DNA of 64,000 bases from Opeltia flavorubescens (taxonomy: Eukaryota > Ascomycota > Lecanoromycetes > Teloschistales > Teloschistaceae): contig KE546972.1 in the NCBI GenBank assembly GCA_000442125.1, positions 1,673,112 to 1,737,111 of the forward strand, written 5' to 3'. The notes below the pieces were generated by a model. It did not search any database. It saw only the letters and a list, made by a program, of their open reading frames with translations, and was not told the DNA's origin. Of the stretch, positions 717 to 64,000 are shown in pieces (the stretch's first letter is position 1; each line of letters starts with the position of its first letter). Both the position numbers and the translations under genes were made by a program.

Positions 717-1770
717 GATAATTGGAGAATGAAACCTGTCGGCATGATCAAGTCACAAACCGGGCTCTTACAAGATATAGGAGTTCATTGACCGCAATCA
801 CGTCGGCTCAAATCCCGAAGCTATTGGTCTAAATTTCGAGGTCCGCAATAGTCATTATCGTCTGCAGTAGGCAAAAATTTGTGGAGGGTAGATGCAAAGC
901 GCAAGTAAGCAGAGGCATACACACAAGTGGAACTGTGCCTTCATCCGTGTTACTCTTGGTTTCAGGCAACCAGAATGATGCATACTCCTTTGAGAGCAAT
1001 TAGATGCAGTCATGCATGAGCAGGAACTGTGCCTCTATCTATTTTACTCTTGATTTCTGCGATGCTCATTTCTTACCTGGAGCTTTTGCAAGGCATCTCA
1101 AAATGGCTCCGGTACTCTGGACAAGGCTATTTTGACGCTAATGGATCATTCTCTTCCATTCATTGAGCAATCTGTGATGAGTAAGCTAAATTTTCAGGAC
1201 ACTCAACGAAGGATGGCGGTGATCCTTTCATGAAAAGAGTTTATACATGCTGGAATTATCAGATGTCACAAACTGCAGTGGCACATAGACGTTGGCTTCC
1301 GGCTAAAGACGGAACATCTAGACACATTCAAGGTTATTCACGGATGGATGATACCTCATTTCCCTAGGGGTCGGCATTCGTATCTGCGAGCAATTGCTTT
1401 GCCACGATGGCCAGCTTACATTCAATTCCAATATTACTGCATTGTAGGTCACACGAGATGCATACGTTTCTGCTGCCTTGCAGTTCGCCAATTTGTTTCT
1501 TCTGCGGCTGTCCTGCAATTACCTCGCTCCCCAATCGAAAAGCCTCACTTGTGGTAATCTCGTTGTGGAGGAGCTGAGCTAGTGTTTCGTCATTCGTCCA
1601 GGAGAGATATTATTACCCGTATTCTGGCATTCACTAATCATGATTGACAATTTTCGACGATAGTCCTTCCCCCAAGTGCCTTTTCACCCCTAACCAAGGC
1701 CTTAACATTGAAGCTCAGGTGGTTAATACCGTCACTCTACACCTAATTCTTTCTGATGAGAGTAATAGAC
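717..1770. other. Intergenic spacer with a diverged direct repeat
   Basis: This stretch separates two divergent secreted-protein genes and should hold both promoters. Short open frames here lack introns, domains or coding character. It contains an imperfect 35-bp direct repeat at 929-963 and 1023-1057, listed separately. Confidence 0.5.
929..1057. repeat. Imperfect 35-bp direct repeat, two copies
   Basis: Copies lie at 929-963 and 1023-1057; both begin GGAACTGTGCCT. By eye 29 of 35 positions agree, and five of the six differences are C/T or G/A transitions. That bias is compatible with RIP-type mutation, but the sample is tiny. Confidence 0.5.
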
Positions 1771-2794
1771 ATGAAGTCCTCACGCAGTCTCATACTCGCT
1801 CTTGCTTTCTTCTCTCCGTCCTTCGCCTCTGTCATCGAAATCACTGGATACGGCAGCCGCGAACCACCCAACCTCATCCTCCGCGACGATGGCTGCCCTA
1901 GTCGTGGCGATTGCGACTGCACCGACTGGGGCGCTGATTGCGACGTGGTGGACTGGAGCTGGGCAACCTGCGACGCATTTCCAGACGCCTGCAAGACGCC
2001 CGTTCCTGCCGTGCCTGTCGAAGGACCGCTCCAGTGCGCACCAGGGAATCAAGACACATACAAATCGTGTTGGAACGATATCCATGCGAATCTAGTGGAT
2101 GAATGTGCGTCTGCGATGGGAAACCAGCTGCCGGGTGGCAAGGTGAATAGCAGGAGCCCGAACATCACCCAGGTTCTGCGGGATGGTGGCAGTGGAGGCC
2201 ACGGGGTGACATACAGTGAGTCGTTCCTTTTTGGTGTCATCTCCGTAGTAGATGAGAGTGAGAGGAGAAATTTTAGAGGATGCTTGACTGATCATGGTAT
2301 ACCATACAGTGATGAATATAGGATGGATCCCCGGCTGCGATTTGTATGATGAAATGGTGCCTGACAATCCCTTCAGTCATTCCGGAGCTGATGATAGGAA
2401 CTACGTCGCAATCATCAAGGACACATATCACAAGTGTAAGTGCTTCCCTAAACCCTATACATTCATTACCTGTATTTATTTGATGTTATTTGATACGTTT
2501 CTCGTTTTCCCTCGGTAGCACGACACTTTGGTGAGCAGCAAATAAGATTCTCTCTAGAATAATTCCTGAGCCCAAGTGTGTCATTTTACTTCATTCTTCT
2601 CCGATAGAAAAGGAAAGGACGCTCACAAACCTTCTGTTCGACACACAGGTACAGGTAATTCCGGACTCGGCGGTTATTCTGACGTTGGGTGTCTGCGGTA
2701 TGGGTTTTACCCAAATGACATCGATGGCGTCTTTGCTTCGCCACCACATCCAGAAAAGTTTTGGAATTCTTATCCAAACATTTGCGGGAAGTGA
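1771..2794 (+). CDS. Small secreted Cys-rich protein, three exons
   Basis: Exons are 1771-2215, 2322-2435 and 2649-2794; the splice phases (1, 1) are consistent and give about 234 residues. The start at 1771 gives a clean signal peptide (MKSSRSLILALAFFSPSFAS); an in-frame ATG at 1756 adds five residues before it. The mature protein has a dense Cys region (DDGCPSRGDCDCTDWGADC), a middle with CW and DEC motifs, then WIPGCDLY, HKCTGNSGLGG and DVGCLRYGFYP. The spacing W-PGC, C-G-GLGG, GCL-Y-F is what decided the third-exon frame. The same kind of tail is seen in some secreted fungal chitinase-related proteins, from memory; no chitinase catalytic motif is present. Function unknown. Confidence 0.7.
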
Positions 2795-3645
2795 ACTAGA
2801 AGCTGTTGAGATGGTTTGGGTAGAGGCAAATTGGCTTGTGAAGTAGCAATGGAAAGACTTAGGAACAATTGTATCGGCTAAGGAAGATAACAAGGATATC
2901 GTATAAGCATCTCCCGTGACTCCACACAATTCAACGTCTCTAAAATTGATCTCCTGACGTAAGACGATATGACAATGTCAATACAGTTTGGCATGTCTTT
3001 TCCGAAGACATTGAAAGGAAGAACAGGGTGGATGTCCAAACAGGTTTCGATACTCTGTAAATTGAGTTCAGCGTCCCTCTACGGTTCGAAATATGATACC
3101 AATACTTTGCTGGTTGGAAAAAATTTTGATTTTCCAGTATCAAATCGCTAAAACCTAGGATTATCGATATTTTAAACAGCAAAATGAGAAAATTCGATAG
3201 GCGTGAGTAAGACACAACGAATATTAAAGTGCTTAGTATACTAGAAATTGCAGAACAAGAGATCTGTCGTGATCGCGGCAAGATGAACATGGTGGTAGCT
3301 GTAAAATTCTCTGCATGGCTTTATTGGCTGACACTGGTGAAAGCTAATTATCCTATATTATTGCCGAGCTTCTTTGAAGGCGCCTTAAGTGCCGAGCTAA
3401 AAAAAGTAGATCTCAAAGCAAGAAATCTCTCTTCTTTCTGCTAAGTATAGCCATCTGCAGACCCTATTCGCTACTCCTGTTGTATAAAGACCTGTGAGTA
3501 CTAAGAAAGATCGACGTGATCACAATTGATCACACAATACCCTACGACAAGACAGTAGCCTAACCTCATTGATCTTTATCGTTAGTAAGTTCAATTCACA
3601 TCAAATTCGTCCCTTGAAGTTACTTAGTGCTTGACGAGACGAGAA
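2795..3645. other. Intergenic, AT-rich
   Basis: No gene is recognised. A 116-codon reverse-strand frame (3290-2940) has a composition typical of the complement of AT-rich DNA and no coding signature. Confidence 0.4.
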
Positions 3646-4269
3646 ATGAGATCAGTCCTATTTATTGCCGGCTTCAGCCTTGTGTTTGGTGTTTCCTTGA
3701 GCGAATGTTCCGCCAATAGGGCCTGCGATAACCACGACAAGCAAGCATCAGTCTCTCCTCTCCTCACTCATTGTAGCTCTTTCTGAACTACCTGAGTTGC
3801 CCCAGGAATTAGTCCCACCCTCCTTCAGCTGTTTTCTCAGATCAAAGAATTGAGACCAAATGCGAAAGTCATCGTCCTCAGTTATGTTCAGTTCTGGCCA
3901 GTTGACGACTTCCCCAACGAATGCCCTACCGCGCCATTGCGACGACCCTCATCTGCTGAGAAAGACCTCATGAATCAACTTGTTGTGGAGATGAATGATG
4001 CGCTTTCTCAAGCGGCAAGTGAGAGCGGATATTAATACGTGGATGTGGACGAATCCTTCGAAGGTCATAGGTTGTGTCAACTCTCGCCTTGGATACAGGT
4101 TAAGTTCATTAAACGTCTCGTGTAAGGCGATGATGACGGTTTTCAAGATCCATATATCAATTTTGGTGTTTTCCATCCGAATGAAGAGGGCCAGAAACGG
4201 TATACGTCTCAGCTGGCAGCGGCAACAGACTGCGGAGCGGGCTTTAAGCTTACATCTTTCGAGCTATAA
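3646..4269 (+). pseudogene. Decayed secreted SGNH/GDSL-hydrolase-like gene
   Basis: An ATG at 3646 opens a signal-peptide-like start (MRSVLFIAGFSLVFGVSLS) that soon hits stops. From about 3817 the frame reads LLQLFSQIKELRPNAKVIVL and continues to a TAA at 4033-4035. Past that stop the same frame continues as VDVDESFEGHRLC. A further segment reads YINFGVFHPNEEGQKRYTSQ and ends at 4269. The GHR..C and HPN..G..RY pieces match the C-terminal half of secreted SGNH esterases, where the HPN histidine is the catalytic base. The stop could come from a single C-to-T change of CAA. The N-terminal GDS block was not found, and frames shift between the pieces. Confidence 0.6.
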
Positions 4270-5315
4270 TCACCCCATCCCTTTGTTCAGGACTGTTCGA
4301 GGTGCTTCCGAAGCCCAATGTTAGGAATGACTCAAATTCAATCAGTTTAGGCGCAGATCAGATTTCAACAAAGAATGTTGAGTAGAGGAGATGAAGCGCA
4401 GATAAGATAGTAAGACTGCTCGGTAATAACATCGAAGAATAGTCCTTTTGACAATTTTGAAAGCTCTTATGAAGCTCCCATGCACATATCAAGACAAAAA
4501 TGACGTACGCCCATGTTCACATGACTATCTTACGCCACACCCAATGAATTTACTGCACTCTCGATTGCCCGAGAAAGAATCGGTTGCCAATCCAGGGAGA
4601 AGATTAGAAGATGTAGCTCAAAGGTCTTCGTGTGGGATCATAAGATCATCAGCGTTTACGTAGCCGCTGAATCCTAATGCATCTATCTTGTATTATCTAC
4701 TTTGCCAACTTTCTTCCAAAGATATATCCCTTTATTTAGATTTGTCGACTTCGAAGTTATCAGTACCGATACTGTCCAGTGTAAAGTAATTGCTACCAGA
4801 ACGAATTGTGGAGACAAGCAAATACATAGGCGTCAAAGTAACATATAAGTTATGTCAGGACTGTTTACCAAAGATCTCAGTGCACTTCCCTTTCACCTGG
4901 TTTATAGTCCTAGTGATTGCCTCCTGATTTTGGCCCGTATGTCCACCGAGGATATGACGAAAGCAATCAAGAACGTGGCAGGAAGGCATGTTCTTTTCCA
5001 GGGTTCGTATTTAGATGCTGGAAAGTAATACAATACCCTAATTGTGGTTCTGCGTCCCTGGACATTACCCAGAACCTGAAAACACATCGATTCTTCTTGG
5101 CGAATTAAAAACCCATCTCTAAGTAGGAAAGAAACTGCCTCAAATTGAATCTTGATGCTTTAGTAGCACAAGCAACGGTATCATTGCTAGTCATCCAGAT
5201 CAACCTCATTCATTGCGACTCAGTCACCTAATTCAAATGCAACGTAACCGATAAGGCCAATGTCGATCACGTCCTTGCCGAAATTACACCGCAGAAAAAA
5301 ACTGGTACTGACTAG
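4270..5315. other. Intergenic, no feature recognised
   Basis: No frame in this kilobase has coding character on either strand. Confidence 0.4.
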
Positions 5316-5537
5316 CAAATCGCCCTAGTCTTCAACCCAAATCTCTTCTTTCAAGCCTTCTTCTATGCCGCCTGCACCTCCATCGTTTCTGACACCTTGA
5401 GCGACCTCCTCATGGCCGACAGAATTACTCCCGTCTTCTACTTGCACGAGCACGCTGATCTCCCCAGCGACACCGAAGCTCTTGCAGATGACCTGGTCCG
5501 CGCCTCCAACGACCCAGAGCAAGATTCAATAGCCTAG
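5316..5537 (+). pseudogene. Orphan terminal exon or gene fragment
   Basis: A 73-codon open stretch follows a plausible acceptor (ACTAG) and ends with TAG at 5535. It reads like real protein: a hydrophobic start (IALVFNPNLFFQAFFYAAC) and an acidic hydrophilic end. Codons are C-ending rich, unlike the surrounding DNA. No upstream exon or start codon could be joined to it, so it may be the last exon of a gene I could not resolve or the remnant of one. Family not recognised. Confidence 0.35.
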
Positions 5538-6160
5538 CCACTTGTCCATTCTACAATCGGCATTGTTGCTATATCTTCCAGCCAGCCTTGTCCCTTTTAC
5601 ATCAACCCCAATGGTATATGTACTTGCTCCTTAGTGTACCAGAGTCGAGATGATGATGGGTGATGGAAGCAGGACCTGAGGTAAATCGGTTTCTCGATTA
5701 CATTGCTACACCGAAATAGCTTTTACTTAGGCGAATTACACTCCTCACAAGTTGACCAACAGAAAAAGATGGAATACCAAAGCAAGGACTGAAAAGAAAT
5801 CAAACATTCCGTGAATGTATTATCCCCCGTCTCCTCCTTCGCAAACCAGTTGTATACTAGAATCATCATGCTGCAACACTCCCCAATTCTCTTCCCAATG
5901 GAATTATATCAACTTCTTCCAAGGGAAAAAACAAGACTGTAAAGAAGAAAATCGACCATTCACAGATCTACGCCCTCTATCTCCCAAATATCAGTCCAAT
6001 ATTAGAGAACCCGAAAACAAGTGCTACTACTCGCACAAACCGCATTCCAAAACAGGAAATTTTGAATATAATTCCAGACTTCACTCAACCCCCGGCACTC
6101 AATCCATCGGCTTGAAGAGAATCTCATCTATAATAACGACCCAAACCAAGCTCCAAATCC
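5538..6160. other. Intergenic, no feature recognised
   Basis: A 126-codon frame at 5815-6195 has no start context, no domain and low-information composition; it is treated as chance. Confidence 0.4.
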
Positions 6161-7700
6161 TTAAAACCCCGACCTCACTGCCGGCGACCTTCTAGGCAAG
6201 TGCCTGGGGGAACTCTGGTTCTCCGCGGAAGAATCAACCTCCTTATCATTGTGGCCAAAATGGATGTACAGCTCCATTTTCCCCACATACGGTTTGACGA
6301 AGTCAGAAAACGCAGCCAAAGATGATGGTATGGTAGGTATCAAATTTTGCCAGTCGTGCAGTATTGAACTTGAAAACCTGCGTTGATTGCTGGAGCATCT
6401 TCGTCCAGGTTTTGGATTACTATGCCGCATAGAAGCCATCGTGGAGGCTACGCCAATTCTGTTCATCATTGAGGAATCGCATTCAAGATGGGCAATAATT
6501 CACAGTAGTGGGACTCGCGTGGACAGAAAGGGGAACCCAAGCTAACCAGCATGAAGATTCGATCAATACTGTTGTAAAACGTTGGGCGGCTAATCCGCTG
6601 ATTGCTGCAGAATACAAGACTTTCATGATTCAAAACCTCGTTACGCATTATATTCGCCACATCCATCGGCTGTGAGTCATCATTCAAGCCGCTGTGATAG
6701 AAGTGGAACCGAAAGTTCCATTGAATGCATAGCCATTGACCGCGAACGATATCGCTCCTCCTTCACTTTTATTTGTGCCCTGGAAGGTGAGATCGTCGAT
6801 AACGTAGGCAAGAACATAAACCCGGCCCAGCGTTACAGTACCAACGGTGATAGTAAAGTACGAGAACGGCCCAGTAGTTGTGCTCCATAGGAGGAAACTC
6901 GTCTAGCTATTTGGGATCAGGGCCGCTGCTAAAGGCAGAGTCCAGATAAGTGGGTAATAAATAGTAGTCAACTCTGGCATCTCTCCAGCATATTTGGTAC
7001 TCGCAGTATTGCGGGTAAGCTTGAACCAGGTAAGCTTCTGGTCTTGTGGGTAAGTTGGAGCAGCTACCCGGCGGCAAAAACATTTGCGGGTCCTTGAATA
7101 GATATACCGATCGCTGTAATACGATCTCCGATTATGGAGCCGGTTGGTACGAAAGACAAAGTCTTCTGCTTGCTGGTATCTGTGGACAATACTTTCTGAT
7201 TCGCGACAACCGGCGTGGTCGCACTGTTCAACACCACGAAGCTGTTGTTGAAACTCAACCCGAAAAGGGTCGATTGCCTTTTGATAGCTAGTAGATACTT
7301 GTAAGCCGTATGTATATCTGGCATTGAGGTAATGAAGCGTGAAGGACTCGAAAATATCGACAACTTCGACCTCTGGATTCCACTCACAGCTTCAGAATTT
7401 TCCAAGCCTCTGTCCAACCTTCTTGCACCTTCATCTATAAGCTCGTGGGCGGATCGTTATGACGTACAGAACTGCCTGCATTCTTTAGCCGATTAATTAA
7501 CCCAGACTCTACAGCCACAAATGTCTCGCAGAAGGGATTGTCCACGCCTGCTTCACGGCAGCGTACCTCCAATCAGCCAGCTTTATCGGCAGGAGGGATG
7601 TCGACATTCTTCTGAATACGACCTAGAAAGCGGAAGCCGGGCGCAACAAGTCCAAGCACGGCCAGGATGAACGAGTCGACGTAAATCAGGTATGATCAAG
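6161..7700 (-). pseudogene. Decayed reverse-strand gene, several frameshifts and stops
   Basis: Reading the reverse strand from 7690 downward gives successive protein-like pieces in changing frames. In order: a hydrophobic stretch (YLIYVDSFILAVLGLVAPGF), a Cys-containing piece (EAGVDNPFCETFVAVESGLI), then a piece at 7417-7064. A beta-rich segment at 7063-6690 follows, interrupted by one TAG and including AISFAVNGYAFNGTFGSTSI. Two more open segments lie at 6687-6466 and 6469-6161. At least two frameshifts and two stops separate them with no splice sites that repair the frame. The family is not recognised. The alternative is a multi-exon gene with unusual introns, which I consider less likely. 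Confidence 0.45.
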
Positions 7701-12740: not shown

Positions 12741-14106
12741 CGTGATATCAGGAATTCGAGAGACCTCAAGGAAAATTGGCGAAGGAAAATTTTCGAAGAA
12801 TTCGAATCTATGCTGTTATCAATAAACATCCGAAAATCCTGATCTCATGTTACATCCTTGCGACATGCGGGATATGCACTACAGCCGCGCCGGGTATCAG
12901 GTGCTAGTATCGCATTGTAGGCTTAACACTCTCATAGGGATTATATCGTGATGTCACAGCCCGACCGAGTGTATTGATATGCGTATGGTATGGCTTCACA
13001 TCGCCTCGAAAGTCAAAATAGACAATATGACAAGTCAGCTTTGCAGGGGTATGATGGGGTTTTGTTCAAACTGTTTCCCGAAATAGTCAAAGCAGCTACG
13101 CGCCTTACAGGCGAAATATTACATCCGCTTCCGAAGAAACGGCGGTCAGTGACGATCGTCTGGCATTTAATTCGACAACTTCGCGATACACTGACTGAAG
13201 AGCTTTCGAACATCTCAATCGTGATAATGGCATGAGAATGTTAGGTGCTTCAATGTCGATCCAAGGAATCTTAGGCTCTGGCTTGCAACAGTCATCGCCA
13301 ATGACCTTCGCTTACCTCGGATCCCGTGATACGAAACACTGACTGCAATGTTAGCAACGTCCGGGAACTGTCATTAGGTAGCTCTTTGTAGTATCCCTCT
13401 TCAGGTTCAGTCTGGAGGGACGTTGTCTAGACCGAGGTACGATAACCAGCACCTATACCAGTATCTGATGGGAGGGCATTCCATTGAAAATACCAGAAGT
13501 AGTGGTTTGAGGGAACATTGGTAGAACATCCCGATAGGTGTAATTGGGTTCATGGATGAGCGTTCTGGTGTTCTGTGACCGAAGGACTCTAGCTCCAGAG
13601 GCTTCGGCAGAGAGGGTGTGAGGGGCTAGGGCTTCTGACGCTTATGTAATGATGCCAAGAAATCGCAAGGCTGAACTACAATTTGCCGTCTCATATACTG
13701 TTGTGTTCATCGGTGAAATCGTATGAAGTTTTGTCAATGCGACACCGCGGGACGATTTCAATCATCGGACAGGTCATGTCCTTCGTATTGATTTCAGCTT
13801 TTTTCTTTTAGAGAAGTTTTAACCGCAGTATGTGATCTTGTGCCGCTATATATGCAGGCACCTCCGATGGGGCGTTAGGCTGCATTGGCTGCGCCCAACC
13901 AGATAACCCTCTTAATGGCCGTGAGAGCACTCCTCTATTCGTGTGAGGGAAACACAAGAGCCGTAAATCGTATCTTGAAATATTCGTTGCTGATCTACCT
14001 GATTTTCGTTGTAAGCCTTTCTCATGGTAACAATACCTTTCGAAACCCACGATAGCAACTGAGACCCTTGCCGCAACTCAATCGGCAGCCTCGCGTGCTC
14101 AACGTC
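12741..14106. other. Intergenic, promoter side of the NDT80 fusion gene
   Basis: No gene recognised. The open frame of the next gene extends upstream to about 14068 without an ATG, so an upstream non-coding or short coding exon in this region is possible. Confidence 0.4.
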
Positions 14107-17100
14107 ATGTTTCATAGCCCGTCTGGACTTCGAGCCGCCGATATTGAAGACTATGACGAGCATACGAACACTCATTGGGGGCCTATCTACTCATCCAGTA
14201 GCTTTGGAAGGAGAGAGTATCACGACTCGCAATCTATGCCTCCGAATGATACAAAAGACTTGGATTTGCACCAACAGCCCGCATCTCAACGGAATAATTC
14301 ACTTGTGCCATTCGATCCCATTAATTTTCAGCACGAAATTCAGTCTGAAGATAGGACTTCTATACAGCCTATGATTGAGGTTGCAATCTTGAATGGGTTC
14401 TTCAAAGCGGATGGAGACTGGACCTGTTATCGGCGGAACTACTTCTCTGTCGATTTCTCTTTCCGTCTCGAGGGAGATTCTCTCCATACGTATCACATCA
14501 GGGATTCCGATAACCGTGATATGAAGGCTATCTCGCGCTTTCATCTGGCTTTATCCGCTACTACTGATTCTGGGAAACCGATCGACTTAACTTCTCACAG
14601 TGCAAAGAGAGACAAAGGTTTTTCGCGAGTATCAGAGAACCCTCTCACGTTTTCGAAAGCAATTGATCCATTATCTCCTGTGAATGAATGGACAGCTTCC
14701 TTCGAACGGATGCAATTCAAAAATGCTACCGCTAATAACGGCAGGCGAAGAAATGCGCAACAGCATTTCTTCCTGGTCGTGACACTATTCTGTGAGACTG
14801 GCGGAAAGGAAAAACCTTTAATTCCCGTTGCCTCGAGGAAATCTGCTCCGCTTGTTGTACGAGGACGATCTCCCGGTCATTACTCAGATTATAGATGGGG
14901 AAGCAATGTTGAAACGGCCCCGCCCAAGCTCGATCTTCCTATACGGACAGATACCATATTTGATCAATCCACTTCTGGATTCCATCTAGGCTCAAAGTCA
15001 GGTGAGTTCAAATTACCTGGCCCACAGATGGCTAGCGAGGAATCGTCAAGAGAGGAGCGACCAGAACCAGTGACAGCAACAACTACTATTAGCGACAATT
15101 CATCAGTCTCAAGCGTGCAATCATCTAGATCCAGAATGTCTTCCAAATCATCCATTTCTTCGCAAGACGAAACGCCTCGTCGACTTGTGGATATCCTCTT
15201 ATTGGATCGAGGATTCAAAGCCCTGTGCACAGACGGCTTCCGCTGTGTTGATCCTAATCGGTTTGAGAGAAATTTGCGACGGCTTCTTCGGATCTTCGTT
15301 AGGAACTTCAGGGCAAGACTACCTTCCCGATCTCGACTCATCCTTAGGTATTACAAGCACGAGCGTGCAGTGAACATAGCCAGCGCTCTGCGTACAATGT
15401 TTGCAACTGATGGTTTAGAGAAAGGGTTTTTGCTACAGCTGAAAGATGAGAAAATAGACAAGGAAAAGCTAATCGATCGATATCTTGATGACAACATAGC
15501 TAATCACAGTAAAATCGATACTTTGGATACTGGCGAACCGGCAGACCTTGATGGTAGCGCAAACCCTTCAATTTTCAACCGGACGATGAACCTTTTCACT
15601 GGTATCAACAAACCGGATCACATTCCAACCACCGTTCACCATTTCAATTCAGAGCTACTTAAGACGATGCAACAGGACGTGGACTCGATCCCCAGTGGCT
15701 CAGAGCAGTCGCCAGCAGAGGAGGACGACGACGACGATGAGGACGAAGCATTGGCACCTTCTCAGATCCAGAATTTGATATTCGAAAGTGATGCTTGGGA
15801 AGAAGCACGCGAGGGCCTCATGGGTTTCCTTGTTCCAATCTTGACGTCGATGCAACAAGACGAATATCGTCACAACGTTTACTATTCTGACTTGAATGAG
15901 GCTTTAGATTATCGACGATCACTTCCTGCTAAAAATTCGCTAATGGAAGTGCTTCTTTATTGCCAGGCGGCTTGCCGTGCTCTTCTTGATGAGCGTATGT
16001 TGCATGAAAGCCACGATATGAGCCGCGGCTAATGGCGTGTATAGCTCTACTTTCACATTTTATCCTTCGCAAATCAGCAGCGGAACTACAATCCTTCAAA
16101 AACTCACTTCTTCATGTTGAGGTACCTGTACGAGATGATCTCATCTGCCACAAGCGCGTTGGGCAAGAATTGCTGTCATTGGTGACCGAGGAAATAACAA
16201 GATTACATGCTATGCGATGTAGCATGATGAATATATACATAAGATGTCTTCAGGATCGGTACCAACAGTCGTCAGGCCCCAAAAAGGTATTCCGCTGTGT
16301 CGCTTTAAACCTTCCAGCCCTGACCAGATCTAGCCATGTAAAAACATGATTCTACCTTTTCAAATTATTGTCAAGAAACCCGGGTCAGAAGTCCAGGATA
16401 TACGTTTAGAACTTGAGATATCTACGAAGCAGCATAACGAGACTTCCAGAGACCTTTCAGAAATCCGTTCTCTGACCAAGCAGCTCCCTAGTCAAAGACT
16501 CAATGAAATTGCTGGGTGGGTGGGTCCTGATTCGTCCTCGTGGACGAGTGGATTCCGGCAATCCATCAAGTCGTTATGGCTTCCATCCTACGAAGCTTGC
16601 CAATCATGGGGAAAACTTGAGATAATGAATGTTCGAGCTCTTGTAATCGATACGAGAGTAGGCCTGTTGGTGAAACGGTGGCGAGAACTTGGAAGACGTG
16701 CTCCAACCCCTGGTTATAAGCGAATTGAGTGGCTGTGTGTGAGTGATGTCAATTTTTTGGAGTTTTTTAAATTCACACTCACTTCACCTAGGACTGTAGT
16801 GAAAAGCTATGGGGCGACTTCCAGATCCAAGATGCAGAAGCTGTCGAAAGTTTTACTAGATGGCTAGAACACCCGGACCAGCAACCTTATCATCCTTCAG
16901 CAAGTCATAATCCCTCACAGCTCAATGCAAGTTCAGCTACATCAACCCTAGGTCATCAGCAGGCTCATACACGTACCGATTCGCAAGCAGCGAACAATGC
17001 CCCTATAGCGAGCACTGCTACTACTCCAAAGCCCCTATCCCTACCAAGACAACCAACAGAACGATACTTGGAGCTTTGCATTAATACGGGGGAATATGAC

Positions 17101-17830
17101 ATCAGCCTTGCTGAAATCCATATCAATACGCCCGAGACGTCGATCACAAGCGATGGGCAGCTCTTCGAAGAGATCAGGAAACGATACCAAAAGTGTCGAG
17201 GCATTCTTCGAAACCATAAATGGTCACTCTTCAAGCCAATCGACGTCCATTTCGTCAGGGTAAGCCCTCTCTCCATCAAAACCTTGCGAAACCCTGCGCA
17301 CAGTACGAATCTAATACCATGATCCGTAGTTCTGCCTCGAGGACGGCGACGTTGGCATCCTGCAAAGTCCACTGTCGCTACCTACCGAAGATGCTGTCCT
17401 CCACTCTCGATCTTGGGAATTCTGCCCCTGTCCCTGCCCTCTGAAGGAACCTCCGCCTATCCCTACTAACGTATTCCTTCATCTTTTCAACTCTACCAGA
17501 ACCCACCCGCGCTCCACGTGGCTAAATCGTCTCCCCAAGAAACTTCATCACAGCATCTACCAACGGAATGGAGGTCCGCATGTGGGATGGCAGGCTATGG
17601 GCTGGGGCGTCCATATCATTGAAGGTCCGAATGTGAAAGCGATATTTCTATTACAAGTGCTTTTGGTTGTGATTAGCTTGGCTGGAGCTATTGTCTGGGC
17701 TGTTTTGAAGGGAGACGTGCAAGGTGGGTTTGGCATTGCGGGGTTTGTGGTTGCGGCTACGGGTGTGCTGGTTTGGACTGGTGTGGGATATGGTATTGGG
17801 CAGCAGCAGGAGCGGTTTGTGAGGATGTAA
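14107..17830 (+). CDS. NDT80-domain protein fused to a C-terminal membrane module
   Basis: Five exons: 14107-15994, 16045-16286, 16376-16738 (or from 16334, also in frame), 16792-17259 and 17330-17830; about 1,150-1,170 residues. Residues 90-262 form an NDT80/PhoG (Ig-fold) DNA-binding domain, with GDWTCYRRNYFSV, HSAKRDKGF, ATANNGRRRNAQQHF and VRGRSPGHY. Exon 1 continues without a break through a Ser-rich linker, a basic helical block (RFERNLRRLLRIFVRNFRAR) and an acidic run near residue 540. Later exons carry RIEWLCDCSEKLWGDF, RYLELCINTGEYDISLAEI and GWGVHIIEGPN, then two membrane-helix-like stretches before the stop. That tail is a recurrent fungal module of unknown role. A membrane-held transcription factor is the natural inference. 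The first ATG is chosen; an upstream exon is not excluded. Confidence 0.8.
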
Positions 17831-25638: not shown

Positions 25639-28600
25639 ATGGATCCCATTTCCATACTTGCGGCGGTCGGATCTACACTCTTTGCGGTGAAGGAGGTATG
25701 GGATTTTGCGCAATGGATGCAGGGAATCTACGAAACCTACACTGATGGAGACAAGTTCCTGCAGCAAATCGCTCTCGAATGTTTCATCTACGGTGAATCC
25801 ATCAAGACAATTGGCCATTGGCTGAAGAGGAATCAGAGTTCGACGACACTTATGAGGCAGATGCGGATCACCCATAATGCTATTGTACTTGTCCAGGTCT
25901 CGATGGAAAACGTATCTCGCGACCTGCAAAAGTTCAAGGATGGCGTCCACGAGAAGAGCGCTAAAGCCACGAAACTTGCAAGGCGCAAACAAGATATGAA
26001 ACTTTTCCAGCAATTCATAGCGAACAAAGCAAAGCAGCAGTGGTTCGCACAGACCATGAAACTCCATCTCGTTGAATTGAGAGCTCATACTGCTACCCTC
26101 CATCTCATACTGGGCGTCATTGAGTTGTAAGTTGTTCAATACCAGCCAAGTTTCCCTTTCCGGATTACAGTGACTGATACCAAAGGTAGGGCCGGCAACT
26201 CACCGAATCAGAAAGAGAAGGAGCCAGAAAAACTGGACGCGAAGACGGGAAGGCTAGAGAAGCGACTCATGCTTCGGCAATTCCTTACAAAAGCTCTCGA
26301 TATCAAGCGTGCCGAGGTCGCTGAAAACGCCGATCGAGCAGATCTAGAGCAGTCATCCGCTCTGTCTCAGGAAAGCTCGACACAATCGGCGACTCGAAAG
26401 CTGACCTTCTACGACGTAGTCCAACTGGCACGTCAACAAGCGTTTGCGGAGAAGACGCGGCGATCAGACGATGACTTGATAGACTTGTCAGAAACCCCTG
26501 AGGCTTCCATGCTTCGACCGACAGCTGTAAGCGCACAGAGTGATCTTGCGCTGCTTGATCTGAGCAGCCCAATGCAGCACCAATCTCATTGTCCAGAACC
26601 GTCATTTCCCGATCTCGCCGAATTGGACATACCTGCGGAAGTATCGAAGGAGAGGCCTTCGGTACCAGAACTGGATGCCGCTCCGCCTCTTGTTCTATCA
26701 ACTGCAAGTTCGGCTGAGCTCATTGAACTCGATGCTTCTGGCGTTAATGAGTCCAAGAAAGAAACGGCAAGAGTACAAAGTCAACCCAATACTCAAGTCT
26801 ATGAACTCGGTGGAACATCTATCAGCTCCGGCGTGCATCCAGATCAACTTGGCCTCGAATACGCCGGGACTAAATCATCTTCGACTGATCGTTCAGTCAT
26901 TGAAGAGACCGTCGAAGTTGCTTCTTCACCAATACATGGTGCCTCGCCGGGATTGCCTCAGAAGTCACATGTTATGATCAACATTTCTCCGGATGAGAGT
27001 CAGGAGGTCAGGTCTATTGCAAGCAGTGCTGCCCCAAGCATCTTCAGTCACTCTTCGTCTTTGACTGGCGCTACTGGTACAAGTTCCTTGCCCGGAATTA
27101 CAGAAGAGGATGTACACGCGCGTAATGTTACCGCCCTTCGGTTGTCTTCGTGTGGTAATGCAGCAGATCAAGCTAGTCTACCTTTACGAAATAGTCCTGC
27201 CTCTAGCATTCACATCGAGGATAAGCTGGGCGTCAATTCAGCTCCGTCGAATCACGAAGCTCCAGCCAAGCCCCAAAGAACCTACTCTGAAGACAGTGTC
27301 TTTCAATCTAAATCGCGACCACTGCCTTCGCAGATTGATCAACCTGATGAGCAAGGCTTTCCATGGATCGTTCAAGCCGCACGTGACGCAGAGGAAGAGC
27401 TCATTCGGAAGTTGATAATTAGCGGAGCGGATCTTCAAGCTGTGCATTCATCAACACGACGGACTGCACTCTCGGAAGCGTCGGTCCGAGGCCATCAAAA
27501 AATCGTGGATGTCCTTCTTGAGGAAGGATGTCCGATAGAGCAAATTGACGCGGAAGGAAACACCGCACTACATCATGCATGCCAGCGAGGTCACTTGGCC
27601 GTAGCCAAGAGTCTAGTCCTCCATGGTGCTTCGGTCGATGCATCAGGATCAGAGGGAAGGTCTGCCCTGCACTTTGCTATGGAGGCACCAACGTACCAGA
27701 ACGTAATAATGCTCCTTATTCAGCACAGAGCCAACGTCAACGCCCGAGACGCATCTTTCCAGACCCCTCTGCATATCGGCGCCTGCCAAGGCAATGTCGC
27801 AATGTGCAGCTATCTTCTCAATGAGGGCGCACAGCTTGATGCCAGAGAAGCGCAGTCAAAGACTCCCTTGCATATTGCCTGTGAAATGGGGCATTACGAA
27901 CTGGTCCAGATGATGCTAGATCAATCGCAGCTACAACCGACGAATATGACCTTCTTAGCTGCCTTTTTTGCGGCGGTTGAGTATGGTCATGTGCGTATTG
28001 CTGAGTCTTTCTTCTCAAGGGGGCTCAAGCTACAAGATCTAAGAAGAGAGGTTCATAAACCACTCACCTTGGCAGCCAAAAGTGGGTACCTGGCGATGGT
28101 TGAGTTAATGATTCATGAGGGTTGTGATGTGAATGCCAGAGATGACAATGGATGGAATGCTCTCCACTATGCTTCTCATTACGGCCATTATCAAGTGATT
28201 GAGCGTCTCTTTGCAAGTGGCGTCGCTACCAAGGCGATTACATCACGTAAAGAGACTCCGCTTCTGTTAGCCGTCAAAGGGAACCACTTTCCAGTGGCAG
28301 AAAGGCTTCTACGAAATGGTAGTGACAGTAGTCTCGTGAATCTTGAGGATGAGCGAGGTCAGAAACCCATCCATCACGCCGTTCGGGCGGGGTCCCTCGA
28401 GACCTTCAATCTGATCATGTCCAACGGTGGAAAAGTCAATGAAGAAAATTCATTTGGCTGGCAGCCTCTTCATATCGCCACTGCATACGGCCATCTTCCC
28501 CTGGTCGAAGGACTCTTGCAATACGGAGCCAAGATTGAGGAAAAGCTAGGATCTTCATCAATTAAGAAGGATCAGACGCACAAGATTGTTGAGGAAGGCT

Positions 28601-29922
28601 ATTGGGCAGAGGCACGGTGGCCGTACCCAGGAAGCCGTGCGCTGCACCTAGCCTGTGAGTATGGCCAAGAGCAAATTGCGAACCTCCTCATCAGCAAAGG
28701 CGCAAAGCTGGAGTCTTCATGCGACGAAGGCTGGCAGCCTCTTCACCACGCTGCGTTCTTTGTTTCCTCATCTTTAGTGGAAATCCTGTTACAGGGTGGA
28801 GCCAACCCACACGCAACCACCAATGAAGGGAAAACCGCTGCGTCACTTGGGTTTTGTACAACTGATCCACCGATACCAGAAGATGAGAAAGCATACATAC
28901 ATAACTTGCTGAAGGAGTCTATGAATAAAGCTAAAAAGCAGAGAAACTTCAAGGTCGGTTTGAAAAAGGCCAGTACAGTGGAGGACAAGAACAATCTTCT
29001 CCGAACCGCGGCATTTTCTATGATGGTCGTTTCGAAACCGCATTTGCAAAAAGCGAACACGACTGCACAAAACCCCCATCGGGCCTCGACAGGTCTGGGT
29101 ACGGCGTTGAGCTCACAGCGCCCTCGGCTCCAGCATTTGCCATACACCTCACCTCTACCATCAACGGACCCTCCATCTATCTTAGCCACGGTAGAACCTC
29201 CCACTCCTAACTTACCCGCCTCACAGTCTGAAACGAAAATACCTACCCTGCCCAGCACACCCGACTTGAGCCGGCAACCTACCAACACAGTCGCACCTAC
29301 AAGCTCCGACAGCGCCTTTAAGCAAGATCCAGAAACAACCTCTACTTCCACTGCCGATACCTCCTCAGCCCTGGCAGCAGTCGCCACAGAATCTCAAACC
29401 CTCACTCAACCCACCCCTCTCCTCAAACGCCGCACAACATTCGGCCTTACAACAATGAAAAGCAAATCTTCCACCGACTCCTCCACCTCCAAACTCACCC
29501 TCGCCAGTATCGGTAAACCCAACCTCGAAATCGGCACCAAGACCCTCGAGATTGGTAAACAAGGCGTCGACTTGACCAGGCAGGGACTCGATCTCGGCAA
29601 AAAGGGTGTTGGGGCTATTCAAGCCCAGAGTTTGGAATTGGGGAAGCAGAGTCGGGAAATGGGCAAGAGGGGTGTGGATGGGAGTAAACAGGCTTATAAG
29701 AATGCGAAGAAGATGGTTGGGATTAAGGGGAAGTTTGGTGGGGGAGGGGGTAAGAAGGAGGGGAAGGGGAAGGGTGAGGTTGTGGAAGTGGGGAAGGAGG
29801 GTGTTGAAAATGATGGTGATGATAATGATGATAATGAGGATGATGGTAATGATGCTAAGAGCGTGTTTTCGTTGGGTGGGTTTGGGGAGGTGGCTGGGGG
29901 GTGGATTGGAATGGGGGAGTGA
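25639..29922 (+). CDS. Large ankyrin-repeat protein with fungal STAND-type N-terminus
   Basis: Exons 25639-26126 and 26190-29922, giving about 1,406 residues; the acceptor at 26189 restores frame and gives IEL-AGNSPNQ. Residues 1-160 resemble the fungal N-terminal domain found before NACHT ATPases (MDPISILAAVGSTLFAVKEV and following helices). No P-loop follows. Residues about 165-545 are low-complexity, with a series of acidic hydrophobic motifs (LIDLSE, LALLDLSS, LAELDI, LIELDAS). Residues about 549-1051 hold roughly a dozen ankyrin repeats (TALHHACQRGHL, TPLHIACEMGHYELV, NALHYASHYGHYQVI). A Ser/Thr/Pro linker leads to heptad-like repeats (LEIGKQG, VDLTRQG, LDLGKKG), then Gly/Lys- and Asp/Asn-rich ends. 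Probably a cytosolic scaffold or recognition protein. Confidence 0.85.
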
Positions 29923-54542: not shown

Positions 54543-55949
54543 CTACTTCACCTTGGTAATTACCCAGATTTCGCCAGTCTGATCCGAGCTCATGAATAAC
54601 CTTCCCGCCTTATCAAAAGCGAGGCCAGCAGGTCGGAAACAGTAATCGTTCCAAACGTAGGGGCGTATCTGGCCACACTTTGTAACATCTGGATTACTCA
54701 TGATGTCGATAACAGCCTTCTTGCTCGTCGATGGCGCTACAGGGAAGCCGTTCGCAAAGTCAATCTTCGAGACCTTATAACCAACAGAGACGTTACGGTC
54801 CCTGATCGAAGATATGTCAGCTCAAATTCATCGATCGAAAAAGCAGTAGATTGTTGCTTACCAGCTCCCATGAAAGCTGATGTACCCTTCACTTCCATCC
54901 GCTGTAAATTTCAAATCAATCGGGGCCTGATGCGGAGGAAGTGTGATGACAGGAGCAGCCCTTTCCTTAGCGCAAACCGCATCATTGATAGTATCATTCG
55001 CCGTAAAGGTGTTATTCACGTCCCCTACAAGGAACTGGTTTCCAACTACCAGATCTCCTCTGTTGGGAATAGCGTGCACGTCCCAAGCTGCATGACAATA
55101 AGGGTACCCATGATTGAGTCCCTGGTTGAGATCATTGGATTTCCCCATGATACCATGGTAATTCAATTCGTCGCCTGGGTTGTTCTCGGAAATGTCCTTG
55201 CCATCTCGAGTTGCGTAATCCATGCCCATGTCGACGCTGTAGAGACCGCCGGTTGAGGGATGCTCTGCGATGCCGACTGAGTTGCGGAGACCCCAGCCGA
55301 GGAGTTTGCCGGTTGTGTTGAAGTTTTGGGGAGTCGTTGTGCTGCTCTTGACAGGAAACGATTTGATTTGGCAATGGCCGGTCGTCAAGTCTAGGGAAGC
55401 AAAGTCGACATTGTCCTCGCTGCCTCTACTAACGATCAAGGTGTTCTTCTGCTTTTTGGCATATAGGAGAGTTCGGGTAATATGTTGAGGATTGCTAGCA
55501 CGGGCGACATCTATAATATCGTTACCGGCTCCACTCACACTGCTTTTGGCAGTGTCGTAGGGCCAGGAAAATACTGATAGTACCGAGGATGCATAGAGTG
55601 TCTTCCCGTCGCCAGAGACGGTAATACCGTGTGTTAGATCGGCATTCCGAATGACATTCGCTTTTTGGGAGACTTCCACGCAATGATTACCCTGATCTCG
55701 GATGGTCAAGCTTGTGATACCGGCTTGCTGCTCCACGACCAGAAGACGGCCTTGTTTGTCGAAGACAAGTCCGCGTGGCTTGGTCAGGTTCGTAGCAATG
55801 AGCTGGGCTTTGTATCCAGGCGCAAGGGATGGCGCAGGATAACTTGGATGTAACTCGGAGGGACATGAGCTGGCGGCTGGTGCTGAGTTTGCTTGTGTAG
55901 TTGCGTATACAACCCAGAGAAACAAATACGAGATCTTGTGGAAAAACAT
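54543..55949 (-). CDS. PQQ-dependent sugar dehydrogenase-like secreted enzyme (AA12 / L-sorbosone dehydrogenase type)
   Basis: Exons 55949-54862 and 54801-54543, phase 2; 448 residues. Signal peptide from MFFHKISYLFLWVVYATTQA. The body is a six-bladed propeller of the soluble quinoprotein glucose dehydrogenase fold. Visible blocks are LTKPRGLVFDKQGRLLVVEQ, LGWGLRNSVGIAEHPSTGGL, NPGDELNYHGIM, LNHGYPYCHAAWD, GSEGYISFHGSW and, in exon 2, FRPAGLAFDKAGRLFMSSD. These match the L-sorbosone dehydrogenase/AA12 group, which oxidise sugars with pyrroloquinoline quinone as cofactor. The cofactor residues cannot be verified by eye. It would be extracellular, possibly paired with other oxidative wall-degrading enzymes. 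Confidence 0.88.
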
Positions 55950-57425
55950 GACACAGCTTATCACAGGATGTAGAAATTCGGATCAATAGCTTGAGGAGTT
56001 GAATCAAGAGAATTGAAGTCAACATGGGAAAAAGCTTGATTATATCTAGGCTTCGGGTGCGAGCAGGTAGCCTGGTACCTCGAATCCATCGCTCAATGCG
56101 GGCAAATTGCGATCACATTAAAAGGCAGTCGTTACTGGTCAATTGACTTGGTCAGAGCTTAGAGATAACATGGGGAAGAACCCCGCTTCGTCATACTGCA
56201 GCTCAACTGGAGCGCACAAAGCTAGGAGATACATTAGCCAGCGATCTAGCGCCAAGCCATGGACGTTGCTGGGTGCCACCGCGCAAAGCTTTTTATCCGC
56301 ACCTATCATCTGGAGCCCTCTTCAATGACAGCTTCGAATCTCGCATCTGGTCAGACTGACAGATAAACATTTTTCTTGGGCGATGCGAATTGTGGTGCAT
56401 CGATGAATACCTAACCATTTTGGTCAGGTACTCGGCTTGTCAATCAAATTTCGGAAATCTCTACTAGGCATGAAGGTGTTGTTCGACAACAAGAACCTCC
56501 AGGATCGATGCAGAATACCTTCACTTCCTGGGGCTAAGTGCTAGCCATGAATGAAATCGCGGTCTGCATCTATCTTCGGGGTATTTTATTAAGCATTCTT
56601 CATTCATGAGCTCATTTAACAGCTTTGCTTGCCTTCCTTCTACCACGAAGGGGTTTTCCCATCTGTAGGAATACCAACCAGCTTGCTTGTGTCGCAGGAA
56701 TCATTCTCCCACCGCTGAAGAATTACTGCCAGGCGAGCGTCAATGACTGAAAAAAGCACAAAAGGTTGGGAATCAGAGTTCGAAGATTCATCCTAGTTCA
56801 ACAGGCACTTCAGCGCAAAGGCTTGACAGTCATGCTGAGGCCTCGGGCTCGAGACCAATGAGCCTTTGACGTTTAAAACAGTTTGTATTGACACGAGATG
56901 ATATGCTTGTACTGTAGCATGTATAAGAAGTGTAGACATCACGCGGTCCTAATGATATTTCGTCGCCTGGCGCAATACTAAGATTAGTTTTTGATGATTC
57001 GGTTCTTCTACGAGCTTCTTGCCCTAATCCCTGGTTTTCAAGCAGTTTTTTCTGACTTAGTCTGACCTATCTTTCATTCTTATCTTCTCGTCAATATTTC
57101 CATGCTCCAATATCTTTTCCCAATTGTCCGATTTACTTTGAACCTCACAGTACAGTGTAAGCGCCTTATCGTATCGGGTTCCTGCCAAGATGTACCTGCA
57201 TATGTGTACATGGGCCCCATCACTAAATTTAGATCGAGACGTGTCGAGAACAACGATTTCCTGGGTCGCTATCTCAGCCTTTCAAATTTTCCGATATTTA
57301 GACAACGTGATATTCTCGTGACAATGATCCGCTCAAACCGGGTCACACTTTTTTCGCTTCCCCTTGTTTGCATCACCTAGTAAAGCACCAATCGCAGGGT
57401 ATTCACCTCGCATCCCTTGTAAACA
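55950..57425. other. Divergent promoter region of about 1.5 kb
   Basis: No gene recognised. It lies between the divergent AA12-like and discoidin genes. Confidence 0.4.
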
Positions 57426-63900: not shown

Positions 63901-64000
63901 TTAGGGTTAGGGTTAGGGTTAGGGTTAGGGTTAGGGTTAGGGTTAGGGTTAGGGTTAGGGTTAGGGTTAGGGTTAGGGTTAGGGTTAGGGTTAGGGTTAG
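63901..64000 (+). repeat. Telomere, (TTAGGG)n
   Basis: Sixteen perfect TTAGGG units plus four bases run to the window end, in the orientation expected of the 3' end of a chromosome arm. This is the standard filamentous-fungal telomere repeat. Confidence 0.99.

Follow-up and report, generated by a model that had tools for sequence, protein, structure and literature searches.

A likely membrane-anchored NDT80 protein encoded near a telomere of Opeltia flavorubescens, with a terminal module found at other loci of the genome

The window analysed here, a stretch of 64,000 nucleotides from O. flavorubescens, forms the end of contig C8. It contains a gene whose DNA is best read as encoding one fused NDT80 protein with a membrane end. 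Judged from sequence and from a predicted model, the product is likely a membrane-anchored (tethered) NDT80 factor. Sequence searches of the genome's own contigs placed the terminal membrane module of this protein at seven loci at least. We propose, with a probability of about 0.45, that the gene encodes a subtelomeric three-part protein whose NDT80 domain would be tethered on the cytosolic side, freed by a signal, and then act on targets overlapping those of XprG/VIB-1. The gene and its parts are as follows.

14107..15994, + strand: exon 1 from splice assembly, with the N-terminus, NDT80 domain, Ser-rich linker and first part of the second module; open frame 14056-16032, donor GTATGT at 15995
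14416..14889, + strand: NDT80/PhoG DNA-binding domain, residues 104-261 (Pfam PF05224, 118 bits; aligned to yeast Ndt80, 1mnn)
14890..15174, + strand: Ser-rich linker, open for 95 codons, holding a donor-like CAG/GTGAGT at 15002
15175..15994, + strand: exon-1 part of the second module (RRLVDILLLDRGF...RFERNLRRLL...), a domain without Pfam match
16045..16286, + strand: exon 2, following intron 1 (GTATGT, branch CTAAT, TAG acceptor)
16397..16738 (alternative start 16376), + strand: exon 3, ending in RIEWLC; weakest junction, donor GTATTC at 16287
16792..17259, + strand: exon 4, start of the shared membrane module (DCSEKLWGDF...FVR); intron positions in common with paralogues by alignment
17330..17830, + strand: exon 5, end of the shared membrane module, from alignments; W, G and E of GWGxxxxE invariant
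17639..17707, + strand: predicted membrane helix 1, mean hydropathy 2.78 (model helix 101-127)
17729..17797, + strand: predicted membrane helix 2, mean hydropathy 1.92 (model helix 130-165)

Splice assembly joined five exons through four GT..AG introns in frame from 14107 to 17830 on the + strand, giving a protein of 1146 aa, and the ATG at 14107 and the stop at 17828-17830 were borne out. The preliminary description had placed the NDT80 domain and the beginning of a second module in exon 1 with no stop between them; both indeed lie, together with the linker, in a single stop-to-stop frame of 658 codons (14056-16032). Good splice signals mark introns 1, 3 and 4, whose removal leaves the frame intact; the donors of introns 3 and 4 are GTGAGT and GTAAGC, and the modelled exons run through 1146 codons without a stop. 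Intron 2 is the weakest point of the model, with its GTATTC donor and two possible acceptors; use of the acceptor at 16375 instead of 16396 would give a protein of 1153 aa. Codon-usage scoring was trained on just six frames of the window and is a weak measure, too weak to decide the linker and exons 2 and 3. By this measure the modelled frame ranked first of six for the N-terminus, the NDT80 domain, the first half of the linker and the exon-1 module, with a small signal throughout, and was outranked in exons 2 and 3 and in the linker's second half. The 40-codon windows starting at 15127-15247 had negative scores.

These weak points bear on the possibility that the locus is not one gene. The NDT80 domain and exon-1 module might belong to a gene ending at the stop at 16347-16349, with a membrane-module gene beginning close to the ATG at 16346. 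Alternatively, splicing at 15002 might cut short an NDT80 gene within exon 1. For a division into two genes speak the weak intron 2 donor and the codon usage of exons 2 and 3, which does not favour the modelled frame; the short form is favoured by CAG/GTGAGT in the linker, a match to the full donor consensus. However, the frames of two such genes would overlap at 16346-16349, leaving no room for a promoter between them, and the other three introns are well signalled and frame-keeping. Even in the first arrangement the NDT80 domain would still be fused to the exon-1 module. Splicing at 15002 was judged improbable, as no branch site precedes any acceptor within 400 nt. We regard separate genes, in either form, as unlikely. 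The linker itself is open for 95 codons, against 2 and 7 stops per 94 codons in its other two forward frames; base composition alone would produce an open linker in the correct frame with a chance of about 0.002. Use of the 15002 donor, which is without a near acceptor, could yield a soluble NDT80 form.

The N-terminal part of the fused protein is a well-preserved NDT80 domain. Residues 104-261 matched NDT80_PhoG (PF05224) with 118 bits, where the cut-off is 27, covering positions 1-179 of the 180 in the profile, and in the Pfam search of the whole protein no other family was matched. In a block-level comparison with yeast Ndt80 (1mnn), which does not address single DNA contacts, the blocks YKRNYF/YRRNYF, AKRDKG/SAKRDKG and RGRSP are kept. 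Apart from Ndt80, exon 1 matched in PDB only ETV6, weakly and over residues 378-418 (E >=0.14). Three NDT80 loci are present in the genome: the window gene, L020, tentatively labelled XprG/VIB-1-like, and L021, tentatively labelled NdtA-like. Over residues 90-262 the window domain is 55.2% identical (95/172) to L020 and 33.5% identical (52/155) to L021. Like the XprG/PhoG, VIB-1 and RON1 branch, then, the window gene has a domain of the kind found in L020 (55% identity), but the L020 frame is without a membrane stretch and the window protein adds about 790 residues after the linker.

At the other end of the protein, exon 5 contains two hydrophobic stretches after GWGVHIIEGPN (17600-17632), just as had been claimed, with hydropathy values of 2.78 and 1.92 that none of 2000 shuffles of the exon reached together. 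An AlphaFold2 model of exon 5 built from six sequences predicted two helices with confidence, at residues 101-127 and 130-165 of the exon (block pLDDT of 65-94); the model is confident in the hairpin only, and 94 of the 166 residues have pLDDT <50. We compared the last exons of five of the six paralogues, leaving out L051, which has a frame change there. A matching hairpin was present in all five, and shuffles reached its values in 0/2000 cases for four of them and in 7/2000 for L017. Before the hairpin the window protein has no strongly hydrophobic stretch (maximum 1.27), and the single open frames of the other two NDT80 loci have none comparable (0.88 and 1.38). The earlier suggestion of a membrane-tethered factor thus gains support from hydropathy, from the hairpin in five tested paralogous last exons and from the predicted model.

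The search that gave the module loci covered 34.4 Mb in 23 contigs, and the counts of loci are lower bounds. The window protein as query found the copies on C9, C8 (302k), C13 and C5 at E <=4e-7 and the one on C20 at 0.005, and L051 on C14 was reached through the L019 query with E 4.8e-45. A weak match at C2:355095-355187 (E 0.11) was excluded from the seven loci, which are as follows.

14107..17830 of the window, + strand: the window gene
C9 at 347k: L015
C8 at 302k: L016
C13 at 62k: L017
C5 at 49k: L018
C20 at 56k: L019
C14 at 51k: L051

The copies are held together by intron positions as well as by residues, two module introns being in common to 5 and 6 of the 7 loci. An intron directly after W-x-C is required to keep reading in the window gene and in L015 to L018 (5/7 loci; 4/6 paralogues), and reading continues without it in L019 and L051. 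A GT directly follows the FV[QR]-type motif at 6/7 loci (5/6 paralogues) and is absent in L019; L051 reads on whether or not an intron is assumed here, and its intron was placed by the match to L019. In GWGxxxxE, the W, G and E do not vary among the six last exons that were aligned. The window gene carries all marks of the module: the W-x-C then x-C motif, both introns, GWGxxxxE and the C-terminal hairpin. While the membrane half of the second module thus has six further loci in the genome, the exon-1 half gave no second copy there at E<=10. Module profiles found nothing significant in PDB (best E 0.39, and 0 matches for the second profile), and a single-sequence model of the exon-1 module, with mean pLDDT 38.7, was too poor to use. 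No relatives were confirmed in viral or prokaryote contigs, as expected, because the protein is fungal.

Several of the sister copies stand behind other domains. At L015 a Zn_clus match of 30.6 bits (cut-off 21), covering positions 5-34 of the 39 in the profile, lies in an uninterrupted frame with RIRWTC of the module; the start of the Zn2Cys6 cluster would be in the preceding exon. This arrangement (C9:345700-353700, positions 1505-3414 on the - strand) makes L015 a second possible membrane-tethered transcription factor, to judge by its sequence. At L018 (C5:43500-51500, positions 3738-6505 on the + strand) a HeLo domain (29 bits, cut-off 23.2) is followed by a likely short intron and a P-loop, GATGSGKS, in a GTPase-like frame which continues into RIEWIC, although the GTPase matches are below cut-offs; HeLo, P-loop GTPase-like stretch and membrane module are seemingly one gene. 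The module is therefore not specific to transcription factors. At L051 (C14:45000-53500, positions 3745-7350 on the + strand) HET, ankyrin and module stretches are split by in-frame stops, in addition to the frame change in the hairpin region. The ankyrin matches there are below cut-off and in the same frame as RIRWTC, and HET (29.3 bits, cut-off 22.5) lies upstream; since stops divide HET from the ankyrin frame, the link of HET to the module is unproven, and HET may be broken off or separate. Dinucleotide ratios gave no support to repeat-induced mutation behind these stops.

The remaining copies gave no proven partner. A C2H2 finger upstream of L016 (26 bits, cut-off 25.2) was not taken as fused, as a stop divides the two consecutive stretches of the same frame that lead from finger to module, and a transporter upstream of L017 was taken as a separate gene. 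Neither L017 nor L019 has a known domain in the module's own frame, and L019 has a TAG in frame. The frame entering the module at L017 (C13:61000-69000, positions 2452-3147 on the - strand) has its own hydrophobic stretch near its start.

Most of the copies lie near chromosome ends. The window itself ends in telomere repeats:

63901..64000, + strand: telomere repeat (TTAGGG)n that closes the contig, about 46 kb away from the gene

Five of the seven module copies (window, C5, C13, C14 and C20) lie no farther than 65 kb from a contig end, and telomere repeats are present at each of those five ends; among the contig ends read, 12 of 13 had telomere repeats, and the start of C2 is N. For 46 ends the chance of five in seven is about 9e-5, with a distance cut-off picked after the data had been seen, and with the window gene left out, 4/6 copies are subtelomeric (chance 7e-4). 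Such a position could also be that of a real fusion without special function, a degenerate or recently assembled gene under weak selection. The in-frame stops in two sister loci, L051 and L019, fit this explanation, as does the fact that the part of the second module in exon 1 occurs only once in the genome. It is nevertheless quite improbable in our view, given that the 1146 modelled codons are without a stop, the NDT80 domain is well preserved, and the hairpin and the invariant motif residues are kept.

Proteins combining an NDT80-type domain with a membrane helix are known from other systems. Like MYRF and Dictyostelium MrfA, the window protein has both, the helix being predicted here. It differs from them in that no ICA was found, the two-helix hairpin is at the extreme C-terminus, and the module is common to non-NDT80 proteins. 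The search for an ICA/endosialidase-chaperone domain gave no Pfam match at E<=10 in the window protein, in a setting where HMMER filters drop most matches above about 0.1. According to the part of PMC3828593 covered here, the MRF family had been found in animals and not in fungi, and MrfA cleaves itself in a manner known from the tail-spike proteins of phages. As no ICA domain was found in the window protein, the cleavage that the preliminary description held possible would have to use something else.

The preliminary description had called the fusion unusual, and this needs changing, since other loci of this genome have the membrane module attached to different domains and a candidate class of fungal NDT80 proteins with a transmembrane domain is in print. 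The portion of PMC13294678 covered here describes a small fungal orthogroup, ENOG502D42H (example member A0A9P9Q0Z2_9PLEO), as a putative class with NDT80 and a transmembrane domain and no ICA, and contains no experiment on it; a preprint of the same work is among the records on this orthogroup. Compared by description only, the window protein is like this group in being fungal, in having NDT80 as sole known domain and a membrane helix, and in lacking the MYRF ICA, but section 27 of PMC13294678 is without mention of a shared membrane module or other partners. Four Fusarium proteins in the covered part of that paper have DUF3176, unlike the window protein, which has no match to it. The covered portions of the fungal cell death review PMC12881547 contain no such module, and no description of it was found in titles and abstract starts on NDT80 with membrane, HET, HeLo or Zn2Cys6. 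XprG, VIB-1 and RON1 are described in the covered parts of PMC4683649, PMC4950302 and PMC3821154, and 'transmembrane' and 'membrane' have 0 occurrences in PMC4683649. In the literature covered, a fungal candidate class that pairs NDT80 with a membrane helix and lacks the MYRF domain had thus been published before, and the shared anchor, which also follows Zn2Cys6 and HeLo-type domains, is the part that did not turn up.

In the mechanism that we propose, the protein would have three parts: the NDT80 DNA-binding domain (nearest to L020), a middle region, and the membrane module at the C-terminus, which closes with a helical hairpin. Because no strongly hydrophobic stretch precedes the hairpin, we infer that it would be made in the cytosol and inserted via its C-terminus, with the NDT80 domain on the cytosolic side. 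The protein would be held outside the nucleus until a signal arrives, which the module would read. The NDT80 part may then be freed by proteolysis, or a shorter product may be made instead; release of this kind is suggested by analogy with other membrane-tethered factors. The freed part would act on targets overlapping those of XprG/VIB-1. If this is true, fungi have their own NDT80 membrane tethering without the self-cleaving domain of animal MYRF, the anchor is a common part that carries, among others, domains associated with self/non-self cell death in fungi, and the published candidate class gains a testable biological setting.

A real fusion could also stay on the membrane as a receptor of non-self or stress, in which NDT80 would serve as a bait or decoy instead of an output. 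Like fungal HeLo/HET incompatibility-type proteins, the window gene has the C-terminal module that follows HeLo and GTPase in L018 and lies downstream of HET, with stops between, in the apparently broken L051, where ankyrin matches occur as well; it differs in having NDT80 where the cell-death-type N-terminus stands. The subtelomeric place of 5/7 copies is consistent with a bait, and so is the control of heterokaryon-incompatibility cell death by VIB-1, reported in the covered parts of PMC4683649 and PMC4950302. However, the blocks aligned to yeast Ndt80 are kept, as expected of a working binder, and Zn2Cys6, a second DNA-binding type on the module, suggests output, so that a bait seems doubtful. 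More broadly, and only as a long shot, the module may be a membrane receptor or anchor of fungi that is combined, for the most part close to telomeres, with different outputs: NDT80 and Zn2Cys6 for gene regulation, HeLo/HET for cell death. The NDT80 version would then link a signal at the membrane straight to a programme like that of VIB-1.

Two further frames were observed in the window. One at 26131-29919 (+ strand), of 1263 codons, is rich in ankyrin repeats (Ank_2, 318.7 bits), and the other, at 54861-55982 (- strand), is TrAA12-like (248.9 bits).
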